A stretch of 39,655 nucleotides of DNA from Nocardioidaceae bacterium (lineage in GTDB: Bacteria; Actinomycetota; Actinomycetes; Propionibacteriales; Nocardioidaceae), in the NCBI GenBank assembly GCA_025927595.1, contig JAICLD010000003.1, forward strand, positions 1-39,655. The letters run 5' to 3'. Shown here piece after piece: positions 571-39,655 of the stretch. Both the position numbers and the translations under genes were made by a program. Numbering within the stretch: position 1 is the stretch's first letter; the number at the start of each line of letters is the position of its first letter. The notes below the pieces were generated by a model. It was not told the origin of the DNA. It saw only the letters and a list, made by a program, of their open reading frames with translations, and searched no databases.

Positions 571-3500
571 CTACAGCGCGTCGAGGGCCTTGCGGATCCG
601 CGTGTCGGAGACCGGGTACGCCGTCCCGCGGGCCTGGTCCCACAGCGAGACGCGGTACTCCTCGAGCATCCAGCGCACCCGCGTGAGCCCGGCGTCGGAC
701 GGTCGGCCCTCGGGCAGTGCCGCCACCCGGTGCAGGTAGGCCTCCTGCAGCGGAGCGACCCGGTCCATCAGCTGCCGGTCCGTCGCGACCTGCTGCCGAT
801 GGCCGGCCAGCCGCTCGCGACGGGTCCGGACCGCTGCCAGGTAGCGCGGCAGCGCTCGGAGCTGGGCGACGCCCACGTCGGAGACGAAGCCGCGGTGCAC
901 CAGGCGCCCGACCTGCGCCTTCATGTCCGCCAGCGCGGGCAGCAGCGGCAGCTCCGCGGAGCCGGTGAGCGACCGCTCGACGTCGCGCCACTCGCCCAGG
1001 ACCCGGACCACTTCGTGCAGCACCGCCGTCGTGGTGCTCGCGAGCTCGGTGCGGACCGCCGCGGCGAGCGCGTCGAAGCCGCGCTCGTCCCAGGCGACGC
1101 CGTGCCGCTCGACGAGGGCGTCGACCGCGGCCGCGACGCAGTCGTCGAGCAGCGCGGCCGTCGACGGGTACGGCGACCCGGCCAGCCCGAGCTTCTCGGC
1201 GTTCGACAGCCCGTCGGCGAGCCGGCGCGCGGGTGAGGGCAGCCGGAGCAGCAGCAGCCGGCGCAGCCCCAGGCGGTGGGAGGCGTCCTGCTCGGCCGGG
1301 GACCCGAGCACGCGGACCCCCACCGTGCTGCCCTCGTCGACCAGGGCGGGGAAGCCGCGGACCTCGTGGCCGGCGCGGGAGCGGGCGAGCTCCCGGGGCA
1401 GCTCGCCGAAGGTCCAGCGGGTCTGCCCGGACGCGTCGAGCCCGGCCTCCGCTGCCGCGTCCGCCATCGCCTCGGCGAACCGGGGCCGCAGCGGCGCCCG
1501 CAGCTCGTCGAGGTCCTTGCCGGCGGCCACGACCCCGCCGTCGTCGGCCACCACCCGGAACGTCGGCCGCAGGTGGTCGGGGACCTTGGACCAGTCCCAC
1601 GCCTCGCGCGGCACCGCCACCCCCGTGCGCGACCTCAGGAACCGCTCGAGCGCGTCGAGCAGCGGCTCCTCGCCGGGTGACGCGGCGGTCAGGAAGTCCG
1701 CCGCGACGTCGGGCACCGGCACGAAGCTGACCCGCAGCTGCTTGGGCAGGGACCGGACCAGGGCCACGACGAGGTCGTGCCGCAGCCCGGGCACCTGCCA
1801 GGTGAACGGCTCGGGCTGGACCTGGTTCAGCAGCGGGACCGGTACGTCGACGGTGACCCCGTCCTCGGCGGCGCCCGGCTCGAACTGGTAGCGCAGCGGC
1901 AGCCGCAGGTCTCCCTCGCGCCACTCGTCGGGGTAGTCCTGCTCGGTGACCGCGTCCGCCGACCCGGTGACCAGCATCGCCGGGTCGAACGTCAGCAGCT
2001 CGGGGTCGTCGCGGCGGGCCCGCCTCCACCAGGTGTCGAAGTGGGCGCCCGAGACCACCTCCTCGCTGACGCGCTGGTCGTAGAAGTCGAACAGCGTGTG
2101 CTCGTCGACGACGATCCCGCGCCGCCGGGCGCGGTGCTCGAGCTCCTCCGCCTGCTCCAGCAGCTCCCGGTTGCGGACCAGGAACGGGTGCCGCGTGGAC
2201 CACTCTCCGTAGACGAGCGCGTGCCGGAGGAACAGCTCCCGGCTCAGCCCCGGGTCGACCCGCCCGTAGGGCACCAGGCGGTCGGCGACCAGCGGGACGC
2301 CGTACAGGGTGACCCGCTCGCGGGCCACGACGGAGGCGCGCCTGCGGGACCAGTGCGGCTCCGCGTAGGCCCGCTTGACGAGGTGGGCGCCGAGCTCCTC
2401 GGCCCACTCCGGGCGGATCGCGGCGTTGACGCGCGCGTAGAGCCGTGAGGTCTCCACCAGCTCCGCGGCCATCACCAGCGACGGCTGCCTCCGGAACAGC
2501 CCGGACCCGGGGAAGATCGAGAACCGGGTGTTGCGGGCGCCCAGGTAGTCGCGGCTCTCGGGGTCCCGCAGCCCGATGTGGGAGAGCAGGCCCGACAGCA
2601 GGGCCTGATGGATCCCGTCCCCGTCGGGCTCCTCGTCCGCACGCGGCGCCTTGGGGACGGTGAGGCCCAGCTGCTTCGCGGTGCGGCGCAGCTGGGACTC
2701 CAGCTCCTGCCACTCGCGGACCCGGAGGTAGTTGAGGTACTCCGAGCGGCACATCCGCCGGAACGCGCTGGAGGAGAGCGAGCGCTGCTGCTCGCGCAGG
2801 TAGCGCCAGAGGTTCAGCCAGGTGAGGAAGTCCGACGTCTCGTCCTTGAACCGGGCGTGCTGTTGGTCGGCCTGGGCCCGCTTGTCGGCCGGGCGCTCGC
2901 GCGGGTCCTGCAGCGACAGCGCCGCGGCGATCACCAGCACCTCGCGCAGGCAGCCCCGTCGGTCGGCCTCGACGACCATGCGCGCCAGGCGCGGGTCCAC
3001 CGGCAGCGCGACCAGCTGGCGGCCCAGGCGGGTGAGTCGCCCGCCCGTCAGCGCGCCCAGCTCCTCGAGCAGCTGCACGCCGGCGCGGACGTCGCGCTGG
3101 TCGGGAGGGTCCACGAACGGGAACCGCCCCACCTCCCCGAGGCCGAGGGCGGTCATCTGCAGGATCACCGACGCGAGGTTCGTGCGCAGGATCTCGGGTT
3201 CGGTGAACTCCGGGCGGGAGGCGAGGTCCTCCTCGCTGTAGAGCCGGATGCAGATCCCCGCCTCGACGCGGCCGCAGCGGCCGGCGCGCTGGTCGGCCGA
3301 GGCCTGGCTGACCGGCTCGATCGGGAGGCGCTGCACCTTCGTGCGGGTGGAGTAGCGGGAGATCCGGGCCAGGCCGGCGTCGACGACGTACCGGATGCCG
3401 GGGACGGTCAGCGACGTCTCGGCCACGTTGGTGGCGAGCACGACCCGACGGTCGGTGTGGGGCTCGAAGACCCGGTGCTGCTCGGCCGACGAGAGCCTCG

Positions 3501-25922: not shown

Positions 25923-27878
25923 TCACCGCCGGAGCCGCAGTCCGCTCGCGCGCACGACCGGTCGACGGACGGCCGCCTCGAGCGCGGGACGGCTGCCGAC
26001 GACCCGCAGGCGGTGCTGCGCGCGGGTCGCCCCGGTGTACAGCAGCTCGCGGGTGAGCAGCGGCGAGCCCGCCGGTGGCAGCACCAGGGTGACGGCGTCG
26101 TACTGCGAGCCCTGGCTGCGGTGCACCGACATCGCGTGCAGGGTCGTGACGTCGGCCAGCCGGCCCGGAGACAGCAGGTCCACGACGCCGTCGCGCAGGA
26201 ACGCCGCGCGCGGGCGACCGCCGGCCGCCACGACCACCCCGGTGTCCCCGTTGAACAGCCGCAACCGGTAGTCGTTGCTGGTCACCAGGAGTGGACGGCC
26301 GACGTACCAGCGTCCCTCGGCGGCGTACCCGGGCACCGCCGCGCGCAGCCAGCCCTCGACCCGCTCGGTCCACTGGCCGACCCCGAACGGCCCCTGACGG
26401 TGCCCGCACAGCAGCTGGTGCGCGGCGAGCCGGCGCAGCGCCTCGGCGCCGTCGCCGGCGGCCGCCGCCTCGTGCAGCGCGGTCCCCGCGGCGACGACCT
26501 GCTCGCGCAGCGACGCGAGCGACGCCCCGTCGGGGACGCTCCCGTCGGGGACCTCGACGAGCTCGACGCGGTCCCCGCCCCGCTCCAGCACCTCGCGTAC
26601 GGCGTCGGGGTCCCCGGCGCGGACCGCGGTGGCGAATGCCGCGATGTCCCCGGCGAACCGGTGCACCCGCGAGAGCCGGACCACGCCCCGGCCCAGCACC
26701 GCCGCGCGCTCGTCGGCGTCGAGGTCGGCGAGGTCGCGTGCCCCCGGACCCCCGGTGGCCGTGCCGGCCGCCGGCAGGCCCGGTGCGCCCCGGGGCGCGT
26801 CGCGCAGCACGAGGTCGCCGAGGACCGCACCGGCCTCGACGGAGGCGAGCTGGTCGGGGTCCCCGACGAGCAGCAGCCGGGCGTCCGGGCGCAGCGCGTC
26901 GACCAGCCGCGACATCAGCGTCAGCGACACCATCGAGGCCTCGTCGACGACGACCACGTCGTGCGGCAGCCGGTTGTCGCGGTCGTGCCGGAACCGGGTC
27001 CGCGAGTCCGGCCGACGGCCGAGCAGCCGGTGCAGGGTGACCGCCTCCAGCGTGCCGACCCGCCGCCGGTCCTCCTCGCCGACACCGGCCAGCGCGGCCG
27101 CAGCCGCGGTGGTCAGCCGCTTCGCGGCGACGGCCGTGGGTGCCGCCAGCGCGACCCGCAGGCCGCCGCCGGCCTGGTCCTGGAGCACGGCGATCAGCCG
27201 GGCCACCGTCGTGGTCTTCCCGGTGCCGGGGCCCCCGGCGAGCACGCTGACCCAGCGGTGCGCGACCACGACGGCGGCCAGCCGCTGCCGGTCCGGGCCT
27301 TCGCCGGGGAACAGCCGGTGCACCGCCCCCGGCAGCCGGTCGGCGTCGACCTCCGGGCCGGGCCGCAGCGCAGCCTCGTCCAGCACCGTGGCGATCCGCT
27401 GCTCCTGGCGCCAGTAGCGGTCGAGGTAGAGCAGCGACCCCCGCAGCCGCAGCGGCCGCGCTGCGTCACACCCCGTGCCGGGCCCGGTGTCGGGCCCGGT
27501 GTCAGGCTCCCTGTCGGGCCCCCTGTCCGGTCCCGTGTCGAGCCCGGTGGCGACCAGCGGGCTCGCCTCCAGTGCCGAGAGCCAGGCCGGCTCCTCCGGC
27601 CAGGGCAGCGCGGCGAGGGCGGCCGCGTCGACGTCCTCGACCGCGGTGGTGGCGCGGGCCTGCGCCACGTCGAGGCACACGGACCCGGCGCGCAGCGCAC
27701 GGACCGTCAGGGCCGCCGCGAGCAGCACCCGCTCGTCGGGCTCGTCGCCCAGCCGGCCCAGCCGGGCCGCGACGTGCACGTCGGCGGCGCCGAGGACGCC
27801 GGCGTCGTTGAACGTCCGCAGCAGGCCGTCCGCGCGGCGTACCCGCTGGACGTCGTGGGGGTCGGCCACCTGGGTCAC
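25923..27878 (-). CDS. recD: exonuclease V subunit alpha, RecD
   Basis: A 651-residue 5'-3' helicase subunit of RecBCD. Walker A is GGPGTGKTTT (about 215-224), motif II VVVVDEAS, and late motifs are VTSNDYRLRLFNGDTG and MSVHRSQGSQYD followed by LLYTGATRA. The N-terminal region (1-110) contacts RecBC in relatives. Residues about 112-137 are an extra Gly-Pro-Asp-rich tract encoded by degenerate 12-bp repeats. The GTG at 27878 overlaps the recB stop by four bases (GTGA), so translation is coupled. An upstream frame to 28007 lies within recB and is not used. It is the last gene of recC-recB-recD. Confidence 0.94.
   Translation of the reverse strand: MTQVADPHDVQRVRRADGLLRTFNDAGVLGAADVHVAARLGRLGDEPDERVLLAAALTVRALRAGSVCLDVAQARATTAVEDVDAAALAALPWPEEPAWLSALEASPLVATGLDTGPDRGPDREPDTGPDTGPGTGCDAARPLRLRGSLLYLDRYWRQEQRIATVLDEAALRPGPEVDADRLPGAVHRLFPGEGPDRQRLAAVVVAHRWVSVLAGGPGTGKTTTVARLIAVLQDQAGGGLRVALAAPTAVAAKRLTTAAAAALAGVGEEDRRRVGTLEAVTLHRLLGRRPDSRTRFRHDRDNRLPHDVVVVDEASMVSLTLMSRLVDALRPDARLLLVGDPDQLASVEAGAVLGDLVLRDAPRGAPGLPAAGTATGGPGARDLADLDADERAAVLGRGVVRLSRVHRFAGDIAAFATAVRAGDPDAVREVLERGGDRVELVEVPDGSVPDGASLASLREQVVAAGTALHEAAAAGDGAEALRRLAAHQLLCGHRQGPFGVGQWTERVEGWLRAAVPGYAAEGRWYVGRPLLVTSNDYRLRLFNGDTGVVVAAGGRPRAAFLRDGVVDLLSPGRLADVTTLHAMSVHRSQGSQYDAVTLVLPPAGSPLLTRELLYTGATRAQHRLRVVGSRPALEAAVRRPVVRASGLRLRR
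27471..27542 (-). repeat. degenerate 12-bp tandem repeats inside recD
   Basis: About six units of 12 bp, of the type CCCGGTGTCGGG on the plus strand, encode repeated Gly-Pro-Asp-Thr/Arg in RecD. Copies have diverged at one to four positions. They fall between the N-terminal domain and the helicase core. Confidence 0.8.
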
Positions 27879-30800
27879 GTCGCGGCCCCCGAGCCGCCCG
27901 CCGCACCCGCCAGCAGCGCCGACAGGTCGACCACGAGCCCCGGCGGCGGCGACCACGAGAACACGCCGCACGTCATCGTGTCGACCACCGGCGTGTCCGG
28001 ACCGCACATGCCGCGCAGGAACAGGTAGAGCACCCCGCCGAGGTGGACGGCGGGGTCGTAGCCCGCGTGCCGCCAGCGCAGGTAGCGGTGCAGCGCCACG
28101 GAGTACAGCAGCGCCTGGAGCGGGTAGTGCGCCTCCCTCATGGCCGCGGCCATCGCGGCCGGTCGGTAGTCGTCCGAGGTCAGCTCGTCCCCGCCGAGCC
28201 AGTTGGTCTTGTAGTCGACGACGACGTAGCGGGGGCCGCCGTCCTCACGCAGCCGCAGGACCGTGTCGATGCTGCCGTTGAGGAAGCCGCGCAGCCGTCT
28301 GTCGGCCAGCAGGGGGACCGCGAGGTCGTCGGCGTAGCGGCGCAGCGGGTCGTCGGTCGGCAGGTGCCGGCGCAGCACCTCGGCCACGTCCCCCACATGG
28401 GCACCTCCCACGGGCCGGTCGCCGCCGGCCAGCGGCAGCTCGAAGCCGAGCTCGTCGAGCCGGTCGCCGCGCGCCACGTCGACCAGCCGGCGACCGCCGG
28501 CCAGCGGCCCGAGCGGGGTCAGCAGGGCCGGCAGCAGCGCGTCGGCGAGCTCCTCCGGACCGAGCCCGGCGACCGCGGCGGCACCGGCCCGGTCGGCCTC
28601 GCGTGCCAGCTCCGCGCGCAGGTCCTGGCCGGCGAAGTCGGTGTGCTCGAGGACCGCGTGCACCAGCGTCCCGACGTCGGCACCGCGGGGGACGCCCACC
28701 ATCGGGGACGGCAGCGCCATGCCGGTCACGGTCCCGCCGTCAGGGGTCCCGGCGGGCGCCACCTCGACCTCGTCGACCGTCCCGGGCTCCTCGACCTCGC
28801 TGGTGACGCCCGCCGGGGCCGCCTCGTGCAGGCCCGCCGTCAGCCCGGAGTACGACGTCCGGGTCCACGTCGAGTCCAGCACCCGGTCGAAGGCGCGCAC
28901 GCCGAGGTCGGGGACCGCCTCGACCGGGGGCGTCCAGCGCCGGGTCTCCGGCACCGACGTCTCCACCACGATCCGGTCGCCGGAGCGGGCGGCGAGCTCC
29001 TCCAGCCGCGCGCGAGCCTTGTCGTCGGACCAGACCCGGACCGGGTCCTCCAGGACACCGTCCGGTGACCGGGTGCCGAAGAGCAGCCGGTGCAGCGGCC
29101 CGCCGACCGTGTTCGACGTCGGCGCCCAGTGCGTGACGACCTGGGCGGAGGCGCGGGTCAGCGCGACGTAGGCCAGCCGCAGCGCCTCGCCCGCGTCCTC
29201 CTGCGCGTGGCGCTCCCGGCGGGCGGCGTACCCCTCCCCCGACGGACCGCCGACGTCGAGGACCCGGGTGCCGGCGTCGTCGTGCAGCAGCAGCGGGTCC
29301 GGTGTGCGCGGCACGAACCGGTCCCAGAGGAAGGGCGCGTAGACGACCGGGAACTCCAGCCCCTTGCTGCGGTGGACGGTGACGACCTGGACCGCGGCCG
29401 CGTCGGACTCCAGGCGGCGGCTCCGCTCCTCGGACTGGTCGGCGGCCGCCTCGGTGACCCGGCGCTGGAGCCACTCGACCATCGAGGCCACGCCGAACCG
29501 GCCCACGGCGGCCGCGGCGTGCAGGACCTGCCCGACGTGCCGCAGGTCGGTGAGCAGCCGCTCGCCGTGCTCGCCGGCCAGCACCCGCGGGACCATCGCA
29601 CCGGCGGCGGCCTCCAGCAGCGCGGCGACCCCGCGCCCGGACAGCAGCTCGGCCCAGCCGTGCAGGGTGGCGGTGAGGTCGTCGAGGGAGGCGTCGGCGT
29701 CCGCGGCGGCCAGCCGGTCCGGGGTCCAGCCGACGAAGCTGGTGAGGGCGGCCGCCCGGACGAGGCCGGTGCGCTGGGGCTGGGCGAGCGCGCTCAGCAG
29801 CGTCACCCAGTCCTGGGCGGCCTCGGAGCCGAAGACGCTCGAGGTGCCGGTCAGCACGACCGGCACGCCGGCCGCCGCGAGGGCGTCCCGGACGGAGACG
29901 GCGTCGCGGTTCGCCTGCACCAGCACCGCCACGTCACCGGGGCGCAGCGGGCGTGCGCGGGCGCCGTCCCGCAGCGTGGCCCCCGACGCGAGCAGGGACA
30001 CGACGTCGCCCGCCACGTCGCGGGCCACCCAGGACCGCACGGCGTCCACGCGCAGCAGCGCGTCCTCGCCCGGGGTGACCAGGTCGCGCTCGACGACACG
30101 GACCCGGAGCGGCGCGCCGGCCGGGGCGCCCTCCAGCCGCGGGCCGGAGCGCGCCGCGGCCACGGGGTGCACCCGGATCCGCTCGTGGCCCAGGGCCACC
30201 CCGCCCATCACCTGCTCCAACGCCTCCACCAGCGGCGCGTCGCTGCGCCAGTTGGTGCCCAGCGTGCGGGTCCGGCCGGCCGAGCCGGTGGCAGCCAGGT
30301 AGGTGACCACGTCGGCACCGCGGAAGGCGTAGATCGCCTGCTTGGGGTCCCCGATGAGCACCAGGGTGCGGTGCCCGTGGAAGGCGCGCTCGAGGATCTC
30401 CCACTGCACCGGGTCGGTGTCCTGGAACTCGTCGACCATCACGACCGCGTAGCGCCTGCGGACCCGGGCGCGCGCGTCCGCACCGGTCTCCGGGTCGGCC
30501 AGGGCGTCCCGCAGGTGCACGAGCAGGTCGTCGTAGTCCATCAGCCGGCGCCGGCGCTTGCGCTCGTCCACCTCCTCGCGGACCCGCTCGGCCAGCCGGC
30601 GCCGCAGGTCGGCCTCGGAGTCCGGCGCCGCCCCACGCGGCGCGAGCACCGCCTGGCGGTCGGACACCGCCTGGAGCCCGATCCGGGCGGCCACGTCGGG
30701 TGCGAACGGCGGCGTGGGGCTCGCAGGTCCGCCGTAGGCCCGCACGTACAGGTCGCCGACGACCTCGGCCGTCACGTCGGCGACGGACTCGGTGAAGGTG

Positions 30801-31234
30801 AGCTCGGGGTCGACGTCGGCGGCCACGCCGAGTCCGGTCAGCATCTGCTGGCAGAAGCCGTGGGTGGTGGCGATCGTCGCGGCGTCGAAGTCGGCCAGTG
30901 CCTGCCGCAGCCGCTGCCGGCGCAGGGCCACCGCCTCGTCCGGTCCGGCCGCCAGCAGCGCGGTCACCGGCTCCTCGCCGGCCCGGGCCGCCGCGGGGTC
31001 CGCCAGCGCCGCAGCGGTCGCGACGAACCGCTCCCGGACCCGCTCCCGCAGCTCCACGGTCGCCGCCCGGCCGAAGGTCACCAGCATCAGCTCGTCGACG
31101 CGCGCGTGGCCCTCGGCGACGTAGCGCACGGCCAGCGTCGCGATCGTGTGCGTCTTGCCGGTGCCCGCGCTCGCCTCGAGCACCGTGGTGCCCTCGGGCA
31201 GCGGGCCGCGGGGATCGAAGACCGGGGCGTCCAT
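27875..31234 (-). CDS. recB: exonuclease V subunit beta, RecB (UvrD-type helicase and nuclease)
   Basis: A 1119-residue protein, near the usual RecB length. The N-terminal helicase has Walker A ASAGTGKTHT (21-30), VVMVDEFQDTDPVQW (motif II), LIGDPKQAIYAFRGAD (motif III), VVTVHRSKGLEFPVVY (motif V) and LAYVALTRA (motif VI). The C-terminal RecB nuclease shows RYVVVDYKTNWL, with the catalytic D and K, and an AHYPLQALLYSVAL segment. RecB is the 3'-5' motor and the only nuclease of RecBCD, which trims double-strand ends for RecA. The ATG at 31234 overlaps the recC stop by one base (TGATG), implying coupled translation. Confidence 0.95.
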   Translation of the reverse strand: MDAPVFDPRGPLPEGTTVLEASAGTGKTHTIATLAVRYVAEGHARVDELMLVTFGRAATVELRERVRERFVATAAALADPAAARAGEEPVTALLAAGPDEAVALRRQRLRQALADFDAATIATTHGFCQQMLTGLGVAADVDPELTFTESVADVTAEVVGDLYVRAYGGPASPTPPFAPDVAARIGLQAVSDRQAVLAPRGAAPDSEADLRRRLAERVREEVDERKRRRRLMDYDDLLVHLRDALADPETGADARARVRRRYAVVMVDEFQDTDPVQWEILERAFHGHRTLVLIGDPKQAIYAFRGADVVTYLAATGSAGRTRTLGTNWRSDAPLVEALEQVMGGVALGHERIRVHPVAAARSGPRLEGAPAGAPLRVRVVERDLVTPGEDALLRVDAVRSWVARDVAGDVVSLLASGATLRDGARARPLRPGDVAVLVQANRDAVSVRDALAAAGVPVVLTGTSSVFGSEAAQDWVTLLSALAQPQRTGLVRAAALTSFVGWTPDRLAAADADASLDDLTATLHGWAELLSGRGVAALLEAAAGAMVPRVLAGEHGERLLTDLRHVGQVLHAAAAVGRFGVASMVEWLQRRVTEAAADQSEERSRRLESDAAAVQVVTVHRSKGLEFPVVYAPFLWDRFVPRTPDPLLLHDDAGTRVLDVGGPSGEGYAARRERHAQEDAGEALRLAYVALTRASAQVVTHWAPTSNTVGGPLHRLLFGTRSPDGVLEDPVRVWSDDKARARLEELAARSGDRIVVETSVPETRRWTPPVEAVPDLGVRAFDRVLDSTWTRTSYSGLTAGLHEAAPAGVTSEVEEPGTVDEVEVAPAGTPDGGTVTGMALPSPMVGVPRGADVGTLVHAVLEHTDFAGQDLRAELAREADRAGAAAVAGLGPEELADALLPALLTPLGPLAGGRRLVDVARGDRLDELGFELPLAGGDRPVGGAHVGDVAEVLRRHLPTDDPLRRYADDLAVPLLADRRLRGFLNGSIDTVLRLREDGGPRYVVVDYKTNWLGGDELTSDDYRPAAMAAAMREAHYPLQALLYSVALHRYLRWRHAGYDPAVHLGGVLYLFLRGMCGPDTPVVDTMTCGVFSWSPPPGLVVDLSALLAGAAGGSGAAT

Positions 31235-34200
31235 CAGTGCATCGCCTCGTGCTCGAGCAGCGGCCCGAAGACCTGACGGGCGAGCTGGCCGAACCGGTGC
31301 GGCTCGTCGTCGTACGGCTCTGCGGGCCGCGGACCGCCCAGGCCCAGGAGGTGCCGCAGCGGCACCTCCCCCCAGACCCGGACATGGGCGGGGTCGTCGA
31401 ACTCGCCGAAGGCGCCGCCGTCGCGCCGGGACGTGCGCCACTGCTGCGCCGCCCGGGCCTCCGCGGCCCGGGGCGGACCTCCCCGGCGCCGCACCTCGGC
31501 GTAGGCGCACGAGCTCCTCGGCGCCAGCGGCAACGGCTCGCGCAGCCCGGCGGCACGCAGCCGGACCAGGGTCTCGAGCAGCTCCAGGGCGACCTCCGGC
31601 GCCGGCCCGGCCAGCGCGGACATCGCCGGCCCGTCGGGACCACGCCCCACGGTGGCCGCACACCAGGACGGGCCGGGGCGCCCCGACGCCAGGGCCAGCA
31701 GCTGGACCCACGCGCGGACCCGGTGCTTGGCGGCGAGCCGGGAGTACTCCACCCGCACGACCCGGTCGCCTCGGACGCCCGGCACCGTCCCGGACACCCG
31801 CGGTCCGCCGGGGAGGTCGACCGTCACGTCGACCGCCGCCGAGGGGCCGGCGCGCAGGCCGCTGGTGCGGCCGACCAGGACCTCGACCTCGTCGGCGACC
31901 GGGTCGAGCACCGCGGCGCCCAGCGCCCCGGGCGGCAGGTCGCCGCGCAGCCGCTCGGCGCGGACCGCCTCGGCCCTGCCCACCCCGGTGAGACCGCTGC
32001 GCAGCAGCCGGTCGCCGACCCCCCAGCGCTCCAGCGGCCCCAGCTCCACCGCGATCGCGTCGGGCTGCTCCTCCAGCTCGCGCAGGAGCGTGAGGTCGAG
32101 CCGCTGGCGCAGGAACCCGCGCACCGGCGCCTCCAGGAACTCCACGAGCTCCGGCAGCGTGACGAGGTCCGCGGGCGCCGGCTCGGCGAGGGGGCCGCCG
32201 AGGAACGGCGGCCGTGGACGCCGGGGGGCGAGCATCGACCGGGCGCCGGCGTACGACGCGCGGTCGAAGCTGAACGGTCCCGGCAGCCCCAGGGCGCCCG
32301 CGGAGAACGCGCGCGGGTCGAACGGCTGGAGCGGGTGCCGCACCACGACCCGGGAGCGGTCCTCCTGCCGCGGGAGCATCCGGTGCACCACGTCGAGCAG
32401 CTCGCCGAGCGGCACCGCCGGCGGCCGGACCGCGCCGGTGCGCTCGTCCGCGCCGCTGTAGAGGAGCACCAGGCTCTCCTCGGCCGCCAGCATGGCGTCC
32501 AGGAACAGCTGCCGGTCCTCCGAGCGCGGGTCCCGCTCGCCGACCAGCGGGGTGCGTCCCACGACGTCGTCCCCGTCGAGCCGGGTGCTGCGAGGGAACA
32601 CCCCGTCGTCGAGGCCGAGCAGCACGACGACCCGGTGCGGCACCGACCGCATCGGGACCATCGTGCAGATCGTCAGGTGCCCGGTCCGGAAGCCGGCGCG
32701 CGTCGGCCGGCCGCGCAGCCGGTCCGCGAGCAGCGCCCGCACGTCGCCGAGGCGGAGCGGGACGCGGTCCGCGCGCGGCCCGGCGGCGGTGAGCGCGTCG
32801 CTCAGCTGCCGTCGCGCCTCGACCAGCTGCCACTCCTCGCGCGGCGCGACGTCGGTGAGGTCGCGGACGGCCGTCACGAGCACGTCGACCCAGGCGGCGA
32901 GCGGCTGGTCCCCGGAGAGGGCCGCGACCGTGGCCGCCAGCCGGTCGAGGAGCTCGGCGAGCCGTCCTGCCAGGTCGACGTCGCCGCTGTCCACGTCGTC
33001 CAGCGGCAGGGCGGGACCCAGCGTGCGCAGACCCTCCTCGTCCATCGCGGCGCCCACCAGCACCCGGTCGAGCCCGGCGCGCCAGGTGTTCTGCGCCACG
33101 CCGTCGAGCCGGTAGGGCACCCGGGCCTCCCGGTCCAGCCCCCAGCGCACGCCGCTGCGGCGGACCCAGTCCCCGACCAGCTCCAGGGCGTCGTCGTCGA
33201 GACCGAACCGGCGGCGCACCGGCGGCATCGCGGCCAGGTCGAGGACCTCCGACGCGGTCAGCCGGGCGTCGGCGAGCTCGAGGAGCCGGGCGACGACGGT
33301 CAGCACCGGGTTCGTCTGCCGCAGCGACCGGTCCGCGAGCCGCATCCGCAGCCGGTGCCCCGGGTGCGGCACGTCCGTCCCAGGGCGCTCGAGAGGCTCG
33401 CCCAGGTCCTCGAAGGCGGCGTGGATCAGCGGCGCGTAGGCCTCGATGTCGGGGCACATCACCACGACGTCGCGCAGCTCCAGCGACGGGTCGTCGGCGA
33501 GCAGGCCGAGCACCACCTCACGCAGCACCTCGACCTGACGCTGCCGGCCGTGGCAGGCGTGCACCTGGAGGGAGCGGTCGCGGGGGTCGAGCTCGACGGG
33601 GCCGGGGTCGCGGTCCTCGCGCACGTCGCGCTGCAGCGCCGCGAGCAGCGTCCGGCCGGTGCCGGTGAGCGCCGGCAGGTGCTCGTCGAGGGTGGCCGGG
33701 TCCGTGGTACCGGTCGCCACCAGCCTGACCTGCAGCTCGCGCGCGTCCCGGCCGCAGGAGCGCAGCAGCGGGTGCCGCGGCGACCCGGCGGTCGGGTCCT
33801 CCCGCCGCGGCACCGAGCGCTCCGGCCCCTCCAGCGCGGCCTCGGGACGTCGGTCGACGGTAGTCGCGGCGAGGGCGCCGACGCGCCGCCAGAGCACGTC
33901 GGAGGGGTGCGGCAGCCACAGGTGCACGTCGCGGTGTGCCGCCAGCGCCCGGACGACCGCCAGCTGCTCGGTGGTGAGACGGGTCGGGCCGAACAGCGAG
34001 ACCCGGGCCGGCAGGTCGAGCACCTCCGGCTCCCGCACGAGGCGCTCGCAGGCGGGCGTGAGCCGCTCGGCGGGGCTCGGCGTGCCCAGGGCCGCCCGGA
34101 CCCGGCGCCACAGCTGCGCCTGCCACGACAGGTCGCCGGCGAGCGTGCCTCCCGCGCCGTCGGCGTCACGGCCCGCCGCCCACTCCCGCAGCATGGCCGG

Positions 34201-34659
34201 CCGCTGGGCGGCGTACGAGGCGAAGAGCGCGGCGAGCTTCTGGGCGACCGCGACCCGGCGGCTCGGCTCGGGTCGTCCGCCGAGCACGCCGAGGTGCCGG
34301 GAGAGCGTCGTGCACCACGGCTCGCCGCGGCATGCGTCGGTGACCTCGAGCAGCGCCCAGGTCAGCCGACGCTCGGACCACGGGTCGTCACGGGGGTCGA
34401 CGCCGGTGCCCGCGACGAGGGCCTCGGTGACGAGGCGGGCGGGGCTCGGGAAGAGCAGGTTCGCGCAGATGCCGTCACTGCCGAGGTGGCCGGTGCCCAG
34501 CCGAGCCGACAGCGTCTGGGTGACCCACCGCTCGACCCCCTTGGAGGGCACCGCGACGATCTCCGGCGTGAACGGGTCATCGGGGACGTCGGCGAGCAGC
34601 CGTCCCAGCCCCTGCACGAGCGCGTCCGCGCGCTCGGACCGGTGCAGCTGCAGCGTCAC
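31234..34659 (-). CDS. recC: exonuclease V subunit gamma, RecC
   Basis: A 1141-residue protein of the inactive-helicase RecC family. It opens TLQLHRSERADALVQGLGRLL, followed by VAVPSKGVERWVTQTLSARLG, both family signatures. GHLTICTMVPMRSVPHRVVVLLGLDDGVFPR and LVLLYSGADERTG mark the second half. RecC holds RecB and RecD together and, in E. coli, reads Chi. The helicase motifs are degenerate, as expected. The GTG at 34659 follows GGGAGGGA. A TAGGGT -10 box (34690-34695, minus strand) gives a leader of about 25-30 nt. It is first of the recC-recB-recD operon, with cupin upstream. Confidence 0.95.
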   Translation of the reverse strand: MTLQLHRSERADALVQGLGRLLADVPDDPFTPEIVAVPSKGVERWVTQTLSARLGTGHLGSDGICANLLFPSPARLVTEALVAGTGVDPRDDPWSERRLTWALLEVTDACRGEPWCTTLSRHLGVLGGRPEPSRRVAVAQKLAALFASYAAQRPAMLREWAAGRDADGAGGTLAGDLSWQAQLWRRVRAALGTPSPAERLTPACERLVREPEVLDLPARVSLFGPTRLTTEQLAVVRALAAHRDVHLWLPHPSDVLWRRVGALAATTVDRRPEAALEGPERSVPRREDPTAGSPRHPLLRSCGRDARELQVRLVATGTTDPATLDEHLPALTGTGRTLLAALQRDVREDRDPGPVELDPRDRSLQVHACHGRQRQVEVLREVVLGLLADDPSLELRDVVVMCPDIEAYAPLIHAAFEDLGEPLERPGTDVPHPGHRLRMRLADRSLRQTNPVLTVVARLLELADARLTASEVLDLAAMPPVRRRFGLDDDALELVGDWVRRSGVRWGLDREARVPYRLDGVAQNTWRAGLDRVLVGAAMDEEGLRTLGPALPLDDVDSGDVDLAGRLAELLDRLAATVAALSGDQPLAAWVDVLVTAVRDLTDVAPREEWQLVEARRQLSDALTAAGPRADRVPLRLGDVRALLADRLRGRPTRAGFRTGHLTICTMVPMRSVPHRVVVLLGLDDGVFPRSTRLDGDDVVGRTPLVGERDPRSEDRQLFLDAMLAAEESLVLLYSGADERTGAVRPPAVPLGELLDVVHRMLPRQEDRSRVVVRHPLQPFDPRAFSAGALGLPGPFSFDRASYAGARSMLAPRRPRPPFLGGPLAEPAPADLVTLPELVEFLEAPVRGFLRQRLDLTLLRELEEQPDAIAVELGPLERWGVGDRLLRSGLTGVGRAEAVRAERLRGDLPPGALGAAVLDPVADEVEVLVGRTSGLRAGPSAAVDVTVDLPGGPRVSGTVPGVRGDRVVRVEYSRLAAKHRVRAWVQLLALASGRPGPSWCAATVGRGPDGPAMSALAGPAPEVALELLETLVRLRAAGLREPLPLAPRSSCAYAEVRRRGGPPRAAEARAAQQWRTSRRDGGAFGEFDDPAHVRVWGEVPLRHLLGLGGPRPAEPYDDEPHRFGQLARQVFGPLLEHEAMH

Positions 34660-34766: not shown

Positions 34767-35105
34767 TCAGGAGGGCAGCCGGTTGGCGACCGTGAGCAGC
34801 ACGGCGGAGTCCTCGAGCGCGGTGAGGTCGTGACGCTGCGGCGGGATGACCAGGTAGTCGCCCTCGCCGCCCTCCCAGCTCGTCTCCCCGGCGCGCAGGC
34901 GGACCCTTCCGGCCAGCACCAGCAGCGTGGCCTCGTCCGGGCTCTCGTGCTCGTCGAGGGCACGGCCCTCCGCCAGCGCGATCAGCGTCTGGCGCAACGG
35001 GTGCTCGTGGCCGCCGTGGACCGTCGCGGCGCTGCGGCCACTCGAGGCGTCGCGGGCCACCGCCAGGTGCTCCTGCACGAGCGAGGTCAGGGAGAGTCCC
35101 TCCAT
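34767..35105 (-). CDS. small cupin-domain protein
   Basis: A 112-residue single-domain cupin. HEHPLRQTLIALAEG and LDEHESPDEATLLVLAGRVRLRAG form the first cupin motif, and GEGDYLVIPPQRHDLTALEDSAVLL the second. The His/Glu positions that would bind a metal (HES, RHD) are partly kept. Function is unknown; such proteins can act as small sensors or isomerases. The ATG at 35105 has GAGAGGAA 9-12 nt upstream. It lies 55 bp downstream of marR on the same strand and may be co-transcribed with it, so it may belong to the amide module. Confidence 0.85.
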   Translation of the reverse strand: MEGLSLTSLVQEHLAVARDASSGRSAATVHGGHEHPLRQTLIALAEGRALDEHESPDEATLLVLAGRVRLRAGETSWEGGEGDYLVIPPQRHDLTALEDSAVLLTVANRLPS

Positions 35106-35160
35106 GGGTGCTGTTCCTCTCGTCCACGACGGGCGCCGGCGGCGCCGTACCGGGCCGACC

Positions 35161-35613
35161 CTACGCGGGCTCCCGGCTCCCCCGGCCGGCCGCCCGTTCC
35201 TCCTGCGGCCGCAGCAGCCCGTCGTAGCGCCGTCGCCACGCGGGGTCCGCGGCCAGAGCCTCCTCGTGGGCCTGCACGAGCGCCGAGAGCCGCGTGAGTC
35301 GCACCCGGCCCTGCCGGGACAGGTGCACGCTCACGCGACGGCCGTCGCGGTCGGACTGGCGTCGGTAGACGGCGCCGGTGTCGGTGAGCGCGTCCACCAC
35401 GCGGGTGAGGGTGGGCTGGGCGATCAGCAGGGAGGCCGCGAGCTCCCCCATCAGGTGCCCCTCGCCGTCGCCGAGGGTGCGCAGCACCCGCCACTGGTCG
35501 AGCGTGCAGCCGTCCTCGGCGAGCGCCCGGGACAGCCCCGCGGCGGCGTGCCGCTGCGCGACGGTCAGGCGTTCCACGAGCGAGGGCCCGATCTCCTCGT
35601 CCCGACCCACCAC
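35161..35613 (-). CDS. MarR-family transcriptional regulator
   Basis: A 150-residue winged-helix regulator. The HTH spans about 55-80 (MGELAASLLIAQPTLTRVVDALTDTG) and the wing is RRQSDRDGRRVSVHLSRQG, the standard MarR D-x-R-R pattern. MarR proteins bind palindromes as dimers and are released by small ligands. The GTG at 35613 has GAGGGAG upstream; a second GTG follows directly. It is divergent from the AmiC-like gene, 44 bp apart, and the two -10 boxes overlap. The 18-bp palindrome at 36757-36774 is the best candidate target, by position only. It probably controls amide uptake and hydrolysis. Confidence 0.92.
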   Translation of the reverse strand: MVGRDEEIGPSLVERLTVAQRHAAAGLSRALAEDGCTLDQWRVLRTLGDGEGHLMGELAASLLIAQPTLTRVVDALTDTGAVYRRQSDRDGRRVSVHLSRQGRVRLTRLSALVQAHEEALAADPAWRRRYDGLLRPQEERAAGRGSREPA

Positions 35614-35642
35614 TCATCTCCCTCGAACGCCGGTGAGCCGGG

Positions 35643-35650
35643 AGCATACT
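35643..35650. promoter_or_regulatory. overlapping divergent -10 boxes (AGCATACT)
   Basis: Read on the plus strand, CATACT (35645-35650) ends 7 nt before the GTG of the AmiC-like gene, fitting a leaderless start. On the minus strand the same bases give TATGCT (35648-35643), placing the marR start about 23 nt before its GTG. The two boxes share four bases, so both promoters cannot be open together. Confidence 0.5.
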
Positions 35651-35657
35651 CGGCGGC

Positions 35658-36743
35658 GTGAGGATCGAGGCGGTGCTGACCGACCCGCTCGAGGCGCAGC
35701 TGGCGTCCCCCCGTCCCGGTGGCCGGGGGCTCCGGGTGGGGCTGGCGGTGCCGCAGTCCGGTCCCCTCGGGATGATCGGCCCCTCCGCCGTCGACGCGGC
35801 GCTGCTCGCCGCGCACGAGGTCAACGTCGCCGGCGGCGTCCGAGGCGCGTACGTCGACCTGGTGCTCGTCGATGCCGGACGCGATCCCGCCACCGTGGCC
35901 GAGCAGGTGCGCCGGCTCTGCCTCGCGGGCGCGCTCGACGCCCTCGTCGGCTTCCACACCAGCGACGTGCACCGGGCGCTCGAGGCGACGGTGGGCGGCC
36001 GGACGCCGTACGTCTTCACCCCGCCGCACGAAGGCGGCCGACGACGCCCGGGCGTGCTCTGCCTCGGTGCCGACCCGACCCGGCAGCTGCGCGCGGCGGT
36101 CGGCTGGCTGGGCGCCGAGCACGGCCTGCGACGGTGGGCGCTGGTCGGCAACGACTACATCTGGCCGCGCAGCGTGCACCGCAGCGCCCGGCCGCTCGTG
36201 CGCGACGCCGGCGCCGAGGTGGTGCTGGAGCGGCTCGTCCCCCTCGGGGGCGTCGCGTCGCGCACCGACCGGCTCGTCGACGACCTGCGCGCCAGCCGGG
36301 CGGACGCGCTGCTGCTGAGCCTCGTCGGACGCGACCTGGTGACGTTCCACCGGGCGCTGCACGGCTCGGGGCTGGACCGTCTGCTGGTCCGGCTGTCCGG
36401 GGCGCTGGAGGAGAACGGGCTGCTCGCCGGGGACGGGGACCGCACCGGCACGCTGTACGCCTCGATGCCGTCCTTCGCCTCGATGACCGACGACCGGCAC
36501 CTGGGCCTCGTCGAGCGGCACGCGGCGCTGTTGGGGCCACGGGCGCCGGTGCTCGACACCTACGCCGAGGGCGTCTACGACGGGCTGAGGCTGGTCGCAC
36601 GGCTCGCCACCGAGGGCGCCTTGCGGCCGGACCGGCTGGTGGCCGCTGCCGCCGGCTCCCCCGACGTCGCCCACGCGCGCCGGGTGCACCTGGCCAGGGC
36701 CGACGGCCTCGCGCTGACCGTCGTGCCGGACATCGCGTCCTAG
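35658..36743 (+). CDS. AmiC/UrtA-like periplasmic-binding-fold protein, probably a cytoplasmic amide sensor
   Basis: A 361-residue type I periplasmic-binding-fold protein. LRVGLAVPQSGPLGMIGPSAVDAALLAAHEVNVAGGV is the usual opening of branched-chain amino acid/urea/amide binding proteins. GNDYIWPRSVHRSARPLVRDAGAEVVLERLVPLG closely follows Pseudomonas AmiC. There is no signal peptide or lipobox, and no ABC permease or ATPase genes nearby, so it is unlikely to serve a transporter. AmiC itself is a cytoplasmic amide sensor. The GTG at 35658 lies 7 nt after a CATACT box. It is divergent from marR and upstream of an amide permease and amidase. It could act through MarR; AmiR has no counterpart here. 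Confidence 0.87.
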   Translation: MRIEAVLTDPLEAQLASPRPGGRGLRVGLAVPQSGPLGMIGPSAVDAALLAAHEVNVAGGVRGAYVDLVLVDAGRDPATVAEQVRRLCLAGALDALVGFHTSDVHRALEATVGGRTPYVFTPPHEGGRRRPGVLCLGADPTRQLRAAVGWLGAEHGLRRWALVGNDYIWPRSVHRSARPLVRDAGAEVVLERLVPLGGVASRTDRLVDDLRASRADALLLSLVGRDLVTFHRALHGSGLDRLLVRLSGALEENGLLAGDGDRTGTLYASMPSFASMTDDRHLGLVERHAALLGPRAPVLDTYAEGVYDGLRLVARLATEGALRPDRLVAAAAGSPDVAHARRVHLARADGLALTVVPDIAS

Positions 36744-36756
36744 CACCGCGCGGCAG

Positions 36757-36774
36757 TACTTCCATGTGGAAGTA
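36757..36774. promoter_or_regulatory. 18-bp palindromic operator candidate over the permease promoter
   Basis: TACTTCCATGTGGAAGTA has perfect 8-bp arms around TG. It covers TTCCAT (36760-36765), which lies 17 bp upstream of the -10 box TACGCT (36783-36788), so a bound protein would block the -35 region. Arm length and spacing fit a dimeric MarR-type regulator, and such a gene lies 1.1 kb away. Confidence 0.7.
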
Positions 36775-36788
36775 GTTGGCCCTACGCT
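36760..36788 (+). promoter_or_regulatory. promoter of the permease-amidase operon
   Basis: TTCCAT and TACGCT are separated by 17 bp. Transcription would start near 36795, giving a leader of about 30 nt that ends in GAGGACCGC before the permease ATG. The -35 box is inside the palindrome. Confidence 0.5.
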
Positions 36789-36825
36789 TCCCCTCGTTCC
36801 GCCACAGCAAGGGATCGAGGACCGC

Positions 36826-38235
36826 ATGACCGAGTCACCCACGCACGACATCGAGCAGTACGGCTACCACCAGGAGCTGCACCGGTCGCTCTCCTTCGGC
36901 GACCTCCTCGTCTACGGCCTGGTGTTCATGGTGCCGATCGCACCGTTCGGGATCTTCGGCGGCGTGTTCCAGGGATCCGGCGGCATGGTCGCGCTGGCCT
37001 ACGCCATCGGCATGGTCGCGATGATGTTCACCGCGCTGTCCTACTCCCAGATGTCGCGGGCGTTCCCGATGGCGGGCTCGGTCTACACCTACGCCGGTCG
37101 CGGGATCGCGGCGCCGGTGGGCTTCCTGTCGGGCTGGATGATCCTCCTCGACTACGTCCTGGTGCCGGGGCTCCTGTACCTGATCGCCGGTGTCGCGATG
37201 AACACCCTGTTCTCCTCCATCCCGGTGTGGGCGTGGCTGGTCGGCTTCGTGGTGCTGAACACCGCGGTGAACTACGCGGGCATCGAGCTCACCGCCAAGG
37301 TCAACAAGGTGATGCTCGTGGCGGAGCTGATCGTGCTGGCGATCTTCATCGTGATCGGGATCGTCGCCCTGGCCCAGGGCAAGGGTCGTGGCTTCGACTT
37401 CACGCCGATCTACAACGGCGACACGTTCTCGCTGTCCCTGGTGTTCGGCGCCGTGTCGATCGCCGTGCTGTCGTTCCTGGGCTTCGACGGCATCTCGACG
37501 CTGGCCGAGGAGAACAAGGACTCCTCGAACGCCATCGGCAGGTCGATGGTGGCCGCACTGCTCCTGGCCGGGGTGCTGTTCATCGTGCAGACGTGGGTCG
37601 CGTCGCTCCTGGTGCCGCACCCGGGCCGGCTGATCAGCCAGGGCGACCCCGGCGGCACCGCGTTCTACGACGCCGCGGCCGTGGCGTCCGGTGCGTGGCT
37701 CGCCAAGGTCACGGCTCTGGCCACGGCCATCGCCTGGGGGTTCGCCAACTCGCTGGTCGCCCAGGCGGCGACGTCCCGGCTGCTCTACGCGATGGCCCGC
37801 GACCGCCAGCTGCCGTCCTTCCTCGCGAAGATCCATCGGACCAAGGGCGTCCCGGTGAACGCCACGCTGCTCGTCGCGGTGGTCTCGCTCGTGCTGGGGC
37901 TGTACTTCGACAGCCGCGACGACGGCATCTCGCTGCTGAGCACACTGGTCAACTTCGGCGCGCTGACGGCGTTCCTCGCGCTCCACGTCTCGGTGGTCGT
38001 CCACTTCGTCGTCCGGCAGGGCAGCAGCAGCTACGTCAAGCACCTCGTCGTACCCGTCATCGGCTTCGTGATCCTGGCGTACGTCCTGGTCAACGCCCAG
38101 CTCCAGGCCAAGTGGCTCGGCCTGATCTGGTTCGCGGCCGGCCTGCTCGTGCTCGCGATCCTCGTCGCGCTCGGCCGGCGGCCCGACCTCACGCTCGACG
38201 ACAGCGCCCCCACCAGCCACCAGGAGGCCCGATGA
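36826..38235 (+). CDS. APC-family amino acid/amide permease
   Basis: A 469-residue secondary transporter with about 12 membrane helices. SLSFGDLLVYGLVFMVPIAPFGIFGGVFQGSGG and LSYSQMSRAFPMAGSVYTYAGRGI are APC family features of helices 1-3. SFLGFDGISTLAEENKDSSNAIGRSM marks helix 6 and its loop. Substrates are amino acids, polyamines or related amides; the adjoining amidase suggests a short-chain amide or formamide-yielding compound. The ATG at 36826 has GAGG upstream; an in-frame ATG at 36766 lies within the palindrome and is rejected. Its stop overlaps the amidase start (ATGA), so the two are coupled. Confidence 0.92.
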   Translation: MTESPTHDIEQYGYHQELHRSLSFGDLLVYGLVFMVPIAPFGIFGGVFQGSGGMVALAYAIGMVAMMFTALSYSQMSRAFPMAGSVYTYAGRGIAAPVGFLSGWMILLDYVLVPGLLYLIAGVAMNTLFSSIPVWAWLVGFVVLNTAVNYAGIELTAKVNKVMLVAELIVLAIFIVIGIVALAQGKGRGFDFTPIYNGDTFSLSLVFGAVSIAVLSFLGFDGISTLAEENKDSSNAIGRSMVAALLLAGVLFIVQTWVASLLVPHPGRLISQGDPGGTAFYDAAAVASGAWLAKVTALATAIAWGFANSLVAQAATSRLLYAMARDRQLPSFLAKIHRTKGVPVNATLLVAVVSLVLGLYFDSRDDGISLLSTLVNFGALTAFLALHVSVVVHFVVRQGSSSYVKHLVVPVIGFVILAYVLVNAQLQAKWLGLIWFAAGLLVLAILVALGRRPDLTLDDSAPTSHQEAR

Positions 38236-39245
38236 CCGAGGTCCGCTCGCTGCACCCGGCGCCGGACCAGTACGCCTACGCCTTCGGCGGCCGCGAGCCA
38301 CTGCTGACCGTGGCCCCGGGCACGGTCGTCGAGCTGTCGACCGAGGACTGCTTCGCCGGCAACGTCCGTGGCGTCGACGACCTGCCGAGCCGGGTCTGCA
38401 CGTTCCCGTTCCTCAACCCGGTGACGGGGCCGATCGCGGTGGAGGGCGCCGAGGTCGGCGACACCCTCGCAGTGCACTTCGTCGAGATCGTGCCGTCCCG
38501 GGACTGGGCCGCCTCGAGCACGTTCCCGCACTTCGGGGCGCTGACCACGACGCACGCGACCGCGATGCTGCACCCGGCCCTGGAGGAGCGGGTGTGGATC
38601 TACGAGCTCGACGCCGCCACCGGCACCTGCCGGTTCCGGGCGCGCCGCTCCGACCTGACGGTGGAGCTGCCGATGGACCCGATGCACGGCACGGTCGGCG
38701 TCGCGCCCGCCGCCGGCGAGGTCACGATGAGCATCACGCCCGCCGCGCACGGCGGCAACATGGACACCCCCGAGATGCGCGCCGGCGTCACGGCGTACTT
38801 CCCGGTCAACGTCCCCGGCGGGATGCTGTCGATCGGAGACGGCCACGCCCGTCAGGGCGAGGGCGAGGTCTGCGGCACCGCCGTCGAGGCGGCGATGCAC
38901 ACCGTCGTCGTCGTCGACCTCGTAAAGGGTCAGGCGCCGGTCTCCCCGCGGATCGAGAGCGACGGGTTCCTGATGACGACCGGGTCCGCGCGGCCGCTCG
39001 AGGACGCCTACCGGATCAGCCAGCTGGACCTCGTCGGGTGGACCGGCTCGCTGCTCGGCCTCGAGGAGCTCGACGCCTACCAGCTGGTGAGCCAGGCGGG
39101 CCTCGCTCCCGCCGGCAACGTCGTGGACACCAACTACACGATGGTCGGCAAGCTGCCGAAGTCCGTCCTGGGCGAGGCCAAGGCGTACGACGGGCTGCAC
39201 GAGGTGCTCCGCGGCGTCGCCGCGGAGTACCTCGCCTCCCGCTGA
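38232..39245 (+). CDS. acetamidase/formamidase family amidohydrolase
   Basis: A 337-residue enzyme that hydrolyses short amides to ammonia and the carboxylate. Family features are FAGNVRGVDDLPSR near the N-terminus, NPVTGPIAVEGAEVGDTLAVHF, PHFGALT, PMHGTVGVAPAAGEV, PAAHGGNMDTPEM, YFPVNVPGGMLSIGDGHARQGEGEVCGTAVE and the late VDTNYTMVG. FGALT and GDGHA line the metal site in relatives. The ATG at 38232 overlaps the permease stop by four bases and has CAGGAGG upstream. With the permease it forms an uptake-and-hydrolysis pair under the palindromic operator. It is a nitrogen-scavenging enzyme by inference. Confidence 0.94.
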   Translation: MTEVRSLHPAPDQYAYAFGGREPLLTVAPGTVVELSTEDCFAGNVRGVDDLPSRVCTFPFLNPVTGPIAVEGAEVGDTLAVHFVEIVPSRDWAASSTFPHFGALTTTHATAMLHPALEERVWIYELDAATGTCRFRARRSDLTVELPMDPMHGTVGVAPAAGEVTMSITPAAHGGNMDTPEMRAGVTAYFPVNVPGGMLSIGDGHARQGEGEVCGTAVEAAMHTVVVVDLVKGQAPVSPRIESDGFLMTTGSARPLEDAYRISQLDLVGWTGSLLGLEELDAYQLVSQAGLAPAGNVVDTNYTMVGKLPKSVLGEAKAYDGLHEVLRGVAAEYLASR

Positions 39246-39266: not shown

Positions 39267-39655
39267 TCAGCCGTCCGCGGGGTCGCTCGGGTCCGCGGGG
39301 TCGGTCGGGCCCGTGCTGTCGCCGGTCGCCCCGCCGTCGAGGACCGTCTCGACCGCCTCCAGCGCGTCGGACGCCGAGGCCAGGTCCGCCCGGACCCCCC
39401 GCATGAGGGACAGGGGTCCGGCCGCGCGCACCGCCAGGGCCTTCGCGACCGCCGACGACACGAGCGCGTCGGCCTCGTCGGCGGCCGTGCGGCCGGCGGT
39501 GACGTCGTGGTCGGTGACCGCGTCCAGGGCGGCCAGGTCCTCCGCGACCGTGGCGCGCAGCGCGGCGGCGCGGCGCAGGGCGCTGAGCACCTGGGCGTAG
39601 ACCTCGGGGTGCAGGCCGTGCAGGTCCTTGGTCACCGCCCGTAGGTCGAGCGTGC
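39267..39655 (-). CDS. hypothetical protein, start possibly outside the window (partial)
   Basis: The frame stays open from the TGA at 39267 to the right edge, so the start may be beyond the window; a GTG at 39635 would give 122 residues. The visible part is helical and Ala-rich (YAQVLSALRRAAALRATVAEDL, ADEADALVSSAVAKAL), rather like coiled coil, and ends in a Pro/Asp/Gly-rich tail (STGPTDPADPSDPADG). No membrane segment, signal or family motif is recognised. It is convergent with the amidase gene, 21 bp apart. Confidence 0.6.
   Translation of the reverse strand, partial: TLDLRAVTKDLHGLHPEVYAQVLSALRRAAALRATVAEDLAALDAVTDHDVTAGRTAADEADALVSSAVAKALAVRAAGPLSLMRGVRADLASASDALEAVETVLDGGATGDSTGPTDPADPSDPADG

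Follow-up and report, generated by a model that had tools for sequence, protein, structure and literature searches.

In a 39,655-nt stretch of contig JAICLD010000003.1 from a Nocardioidaceae bacterium (hereafter the window), we analyzed a module that encodes a MarR-family regulator (marR), an AmiC-like binding protein (amiC), an APC-family permease (apc) and an acetamidase/formamidase-family hydrolase (amd). With moderate confidence, we propose that these genes form a self-contained amide-response switch, in which MarR represses through a palindromic operator and is relieved by a ligand-loaded cytoplasmic receptor. The palindrome, TACTTCCATGTGGAAGTA, lies between amiC and the permease gene and is a key part of the module; it is absent from the first-pass annotation, which was made from the sequence alone. 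In the proposed mechanism, MarR, made divergently from amiC, would bind the palindrome and block the permease–amidase promoter, with MarR and the receptor both present at a basal level and amiC expressed from its own operator-free promoter, probably as a leaderless mRNA. A small amide-like ligand entering the cell would load the cytoplasmic AmiC-like receptor, which would then displace MarR from the DNA, probably by touching it directly (anti-repression). Permease and amidase would then be produced until the ligand is consumed.

The association of marR with amiC carries much of this argument. We used the AmiC-like protein alone to fetch the loci of its 80 best relatives (34–79% identity; Actinomycetota and Pseudomonadota) and detected marR in them by a profile search of all reading frames. 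It lies beside amiC in 79 of the 80 loci (77 divergent, 2 convergent), the sole exception (L071) being a contig-limited match that holds only part of amiC; this pairing is not chance. The neighborhood survey suggested by the first-pass annotation thus found the marR/amiC/APC/amidase set conserved, which speaks for the main idea of that annotation: amiC, apc and amd are all present in 54 loci, 53 of them with a divergent marR, and the permease gene is conserved between amiC and amd, the permease–amidase pair being inverted in 5 of the 54. Of the relatives represented by the loci, the nearest one with a name is a Nocardioidaceae metagenome-assembled genome. In distant members, marR and amiC are kept while enzyme and transporter vary, and the same pair is found on annotated plasmids. 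It occurs with AmiS/UreI and amidase genes in Rhodococcus gordoniae, with an aliphatic amidase in R. jostii RHA1, with AmiS, an aliphatic amidase and acetate-CoA ligase in Mycolicibacterium arabiense, with urease and ABC genes in Pleomorphomonas, and with an amidase and ABC genes in Caballeronia and Paraburkholderia. Homologous loci with an ABC transporter, which the first-pass annotation had regarded as speaking against its proposal, do occur, but in distant relatives only, where ABC genes and an exported second binding protein are added to marR/amiC rather than replacing them. In an even sample of 396 genomes of the phylum, an amiC ortholog (E ≤ 1e-75) was found only in the window's own genome.

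In a tree of 43 proteins, a branch with support of 99/98 separates all 31 MarR-paired sensors from the ANTAR-paired, ArsR-paired and exported relatives; calling the MarR-paired sensors a clade assumes that the root lies outside them. We tentatively suggest, as a possibility somewhat short of even, that these cytoplasmic binding proteins of the amide/urea type, a distinct clade widespread in Actinomycetota and Pseudomonadota, act as ligand-dependent anti-repressors, each contacting a dedicated MarR. Two loci show related receptors in other company. On a Paraburkholderia largidicola plasmid (L088, 2718–4572 and 5337–8743), an acetamidase/formamidase gene accompanied by an ANTAR-type receptor pair adjoins an amidase gene accompanied by a MarR-type pair, both sets with urea-type ABC genes, so that the two wirings stand in one place. 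In a nitrile hydratase locus (L197, 1550–6473), an AmiC-like gene next to an ArsR-type regulator diverges from amidase and nitrile hydratase genes, which are followed by an aldoxime-dehydratase-like gene; ArsR is a third kind of regulator partnered with the AmiC-like receptor fold.

By sequence, the AmiC-like protein is cytoplasmic: its N-terminus (VRIEAVLTDPLEAQLASPRPGGRG) is polar and has no signal peptide. No ABC gene lies between marR and the amidase gene, and an exported transport protein is ruled out by the N-terminus together with this absence; the first-pass annotation had been right on both points. An internal control for the location is provided by paralogs in the same operons of relatives with ABC genes. 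There, twin-arginine (Tat) or lipoprotein signals (MDRRTFIKSSGA..., MAISRRSLLKNS..., ...VVMTACGARTGED) stand at the N-termini of the exported second binding proteins; the binding protein on the marR side showed neither type. An AlphaFold2 model of the receptor built from a 38-sequence alignment (predicted local distance difference test, pLDDT, 94.3) is closest among solved folds to a urea-binding protein (8tg1, Z 37.7) and to the acetamide complex of Pseudomonas AmiC (1pea, Z 37.4), with 333 residues superimposed on the latter at a root-mean-square deviation of 2.4 and 22% identity in the structural alignment. Of the pocket residues compared by alignment with Pseudomonas AmiC, S102, Y167, P170, E125 and G126 are shared and H100 and W169 differ. 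The AlphaFold2 model of the MarR protein (pLDDT 92.8) shows an ordinary MarR fold, with E. coli MarR (3voe, Z 16.6) as its closest structural match, and its winged helix is recognized both by the profile PF01047 and by this fold match.

The perfect palindrome TACTTCCATGTGGAAGTA is the sole site in its own genome with 0–1 mismatches to ACTTCCANNTGGAAGT. In 59 loci, we surveyed the region 5′ of the permease gene for the pattern CTTCCANNTGGAAG with at most two mismatches and found it in 49, compared with none of 59 for the reversed pattern used as a control; most of the remaining loci have a related palindrome, e.g., TCTTTTCATCTGAAAGGA. A TANNNT box starts 7–9 nt past the operator in 44 of these 49 loci, and this fixed −10 spacing would place the −35 region and spacer of the permease–amidase promoter inside the operator. 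In the gap between marR and amiC, no operator that could indicate autoregulation was found; a −10-like box is present there instead. CATACT occurs in 47 of 56 such gaps, usually 6–9 nt before the amiC start codon, and most of the others have CGATACT or CGATACG, giving an overall conserved C[AG]TACT box. Its proximity to the start codon suggests that the amiC mRNA is leaderless and outside the control of this operator. A simple scan of 35560–36900, where the −10 box and operator lie, found no terminator-like site.

The position of the operator ties it to marR and amiC. The exact 14-mer of the operator occurs in 71 of the 396 sampled genomes of the phylum and is therefore unspecific by itself at that scale, its position being the evidence. 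Among 149 genomes of the family, of which 7 have a close amiC ortholog, the exact site occurs in 7: 4 of the 7 with amiC versus 3 of the 142 without (Fisher p 6e-5). In those four it lies about 20–30 bp past amiC, and in the remaining three genomes with amiC a site with two mismatches lies at the same place, so that all seven carry a site with at most two mismatches just past amiC; five stray exact sites in family genomes have none of the four module genes nearby. Where permease and amidase genes are inverted (5 loci), the site is still 5′ of the permease gene, and a permease–amidase pair (78% and 84% identical) at a locus that lacks marR and amiC (L165) has no operator. Operator position 3 covaries with a residue where the MarR recognition helix begins: T goes with H or G in 26/26 and with Q, A or P in 9/28, and one such change is seen within Blastococcus (L078). 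Distances between MarR proteins correlate with those of AmiC given amd (partial correlation 0.66) rather than with those of amd given AmiC (0.10). Neither the covariation nor the distance statistic corrects for phylogeny, and both are supporting evidence rather than proof.

Gene order, protein families, the missing signal peptide, the conserved pairing and the operator with its predicted place in the promoter are thus supported by the sequence. All five genes of the first-pass annotation were found where it had placed them or close by, each passing the curated cut-off of its family profile (Table 1), and the AmiC-like gene is, as it had noted, tied to marR rather than amiR, divergent from marR and 5′ of the permease and amidase genes. 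The source assembly comprises 2.9 Mb and is 82% complete.

Table 1 Features of the module and its immediate surroundings in the window.
Feature	Position	Strand	Basis
Cupin	34767–35105	minus	Cupin_2 27.5 bits, cut-off 27.2 (barely above)
marR, winged-helix MarR-family regulator, 150 aa, GTG start	35161–35613	minus	PF01047 49.5 bits, cut-off 24.6
CATACT, likely −10 box of amiC, 7 nt ahead of GTG start	35645–35650	plus	Conserved in marR–amiC gaps
amiC-like gene, type I binding-protein-fold sensor, 361 aa, GTG start	35658–36743	plus	Peripla_BP_6 182.9 bits, cut-off 31.7
Palindromic operator (putative) TACTTCCATGTGGAAGTA	36757–36774	none	Conserved 5′ of apc in relatives
TACGCT, likely −10 box of the permease–amidase promoter, 8 nt past operator	36783–36788	plus	TANNNT spacing
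APC-family permease, ATG start	36826–38235	plus	AA_permease PF00324 131.3 bits, cut-off 24.6; AA_permease_2 130.8 bits
amd, acetamidase/formamidase-family hydrolase	38232–39245	plus	FmdA_AmdA PF03069 99.6 bits, cut-off 27

The permease presumably takes up an amide-like substrate, and the start of amd overlaps the permease stop codon through an ATGA at 38232. Among solved structures, the amd product matches a putative acetamidase/formamidase (5ubu, E 3.8e-69). A second FmdA_AmdA enzyme is encoded in the same genome (L132, contig C287, 1890–2888; 54% identical); it adjoins a short-chain dehydrogenase gene, with no marR/amiC or operator within the 5 kb examined. In four Pseudonocardiaceae loci (L011, L013, L024 and L028), a second, imperfect operator copy lies ~15 bp 5′ of the first, an arrangement suggestive of tandem binding by two MarR dimers. 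On the short contig L166, an apparent transposase or insertion remnant (2980–3463) occupies the place of amiC, 5′ of operator-bearing permease–amidase genes. The cupin gene, which the first-pass annotation had considered a possible further part, is rejected as a member of the module, as tblastn at E ≤ 0.01 matched it in none of the homologous loci; this small orphan between marR and a RecC-like gene may simply be a neighbor. Ahead of the module, long minus-strand frames at 27875–34659 contain, by eye, RecB-like (VLEASAGTGKTHTIATLAVRYV) and RecC-like sequence, and a short minus-strand frame after the amidase gene (39267–39635) has no Pfam or NCBIfam match.

From this layout we infer that MarR binds the site, that it represses rather than activates, that the receptor contacts MarR with a releasing effect, and that the ligand is amide-like. 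Several observations weigh against the switch as proposed. The operator is absent from the marR–amiC gap, although many MarR proteins regulate themselves, and a site over the −35 region would fit an activator too. In the receptor pocket, H100 and W169 stand where AmiC has Tyr by alignment. On L166, the operator is 5′ of the permease–amidase genes though marR and amiC are absent from that short contig, and the covariation and distance statistics are blind to phylogeny.

Of the alternatives, the one that fares best concerns the chemistry and is compatible with the wiring: the inducer and substrate may be another amide- or urea-like nitrogen compound instead of a simple aliphatic amide, which we regard as a serious possibility but not the expected case. 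The amd product reaches only 65 bits against the NCBIfam formamidase model NF045496 (cut-off 500) and the AmiC-like protein only 106 bits against the UrtA urea-transporter model (cut-off 493). Since sensor and enzyme both fall below the equivalog level, we use substrate names as family names only. The pocket also has positions unlike those of AmiC and UrtA, and where it departs from AmiC the ligand may not be acetamide. Against this reading, the fold of the sensor comes closest to receptors for urea and amides, and relatives of the module adjoin amidases, AmiS/UreI transporters and urease.

It is unlikely that the same wiring operates with the opposite sign, MarR being an activator or the empty receptor a co-repressor released by ligand, as in AmiC–AmiR logic. 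A site centered near −40 would suit class II activation, and Pseudomonas AmiC is a negative partner that is released by acetamide (PMC5259723), while in Mycobacterium smegmatis a review describes AmiA as a negative and AmiC as a positive regulator (PMC12719403). The predicted layout, with the operator over the −35 half of the promoter, is usual for a repressor and typical of MarR repression, though a class II activator is also possible.

We consider it more unlikely still that MarR itself senses the amide or its product, with the AmiC-like protein only adjusting the level of free ligand as a buffer or carrier. MarR proteins usually bind small molecules directly, and the model shows an ordinary fold of this kind. 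However, the sensor–MarR pairing persists while enzyme and transporter change, MarR distances track amiC rather than amd, and Pseudomonas AmiC signals through release of its partner AmiR (PMC5259723, PMC13209695). The first-pass annotation had left open whether the binding protein signals through MarR or buffers ligand; we prefer signaling through MarR, as sensor and MarR stay together when transporter and enzyme are exchanged and the operator goes with marR/amiC, and buffering is not supported as a first choice. Least probable is that the palindrome is bound by a regulator encoded elsewhere (e.g., of the IclR or GntR family) while MarR and AmiC control something else: the missing site in the marR–amiC gap would fit this, but within the family the site is nearly confined to genomes and places with marR–amiC, is lacking at L165 where they are absent, and covaries with the MarR recognition helix, including the single Blastococcus switch.

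Binding proteins normally feed transporters; the textbook example of one that was turned to sensing inside the cell is AmiC. MarR proteins, in turn, are usually thought to sense ligands themselves, and it would be unusual for a MarR to be governed by a receptor protein. The MarR-paired clade suggests that such receptors repeatedly adopted different output partners (ANTAR, MarR and, in L197, ArsR). If the proposed switch is correct, it would couple a binding-protein receptor to gene expression in a second way, through a DNA-bound repressor rather than RNA antitermination. The 18-bp operator, being conserved, opens the idea to direct tests and could find use in actinobacteria as a compact part for amide-inducible expression. 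A literature search found no published MarR–AmiC pair, which is weak evidence given that most subscription papers were outside its reach.

Among known systems, the nitrile hydratase clusters of Rhodococcus rhodochrous J1 reportedly contain an AmiC-like positive regulator and a helix-turn-helix protein (NhlC/NhlD and NhhC/NhhD) controlling amide-induced genes, and NhlD is said to be ArsR-like. This arrangement shares with our module an AmiC-like protein and a helix-turn-helix partner but differs in the enzyme, and the nitrile hydratase locus L197, with its AmiC-like and ArsR-type genes, falls outside the MarR-paired clade. UrtA urea-binding proteins have the same fold and family as the AmiC-like protein, yet are exported and work with an ABC transporter. 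The acetamidase regulon of M. smegmatis, compared by description only, likewise combines an amide-inducible acetamidase gene with a negative regulator (AmiA) and further positive ones (AmiC and AmiD) (PMC12719403), and differs by the third regulator, AmiD, and by an AmiS gene. The closest parallel in principle is AmiC–AmiR of Pseudomonas aeruginosa (amiEBCRS), in which a cytoplasmic amide receptor of the binding-protein fold is also encoded beside an amidase operon and acetamide binding frees AmiR (PMC5259723). There, however, the partner is an ANTAR antiterminator, compared with MarR and a putative DNA operator here, and our module has an FmdA/AmdA-type enzyme and an APC transporter. No ANTAR protein is encoded near the module, the genome's ANTAR matches sitting on other contigs only (one that we inspected is a receiver–ANTAR response regulator). 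Membership in the AmiC–AmiR system is rejected on the basis of the MarR and APC neighbors, with no adjacent ANTAR gene and no leader terminator found by the simple scan. In conclusion, the module is not an AmiC–AmiR member but a variant of the AmiC principle, in which an AmiC-type receptor is joined with a MarR partner and an operator.

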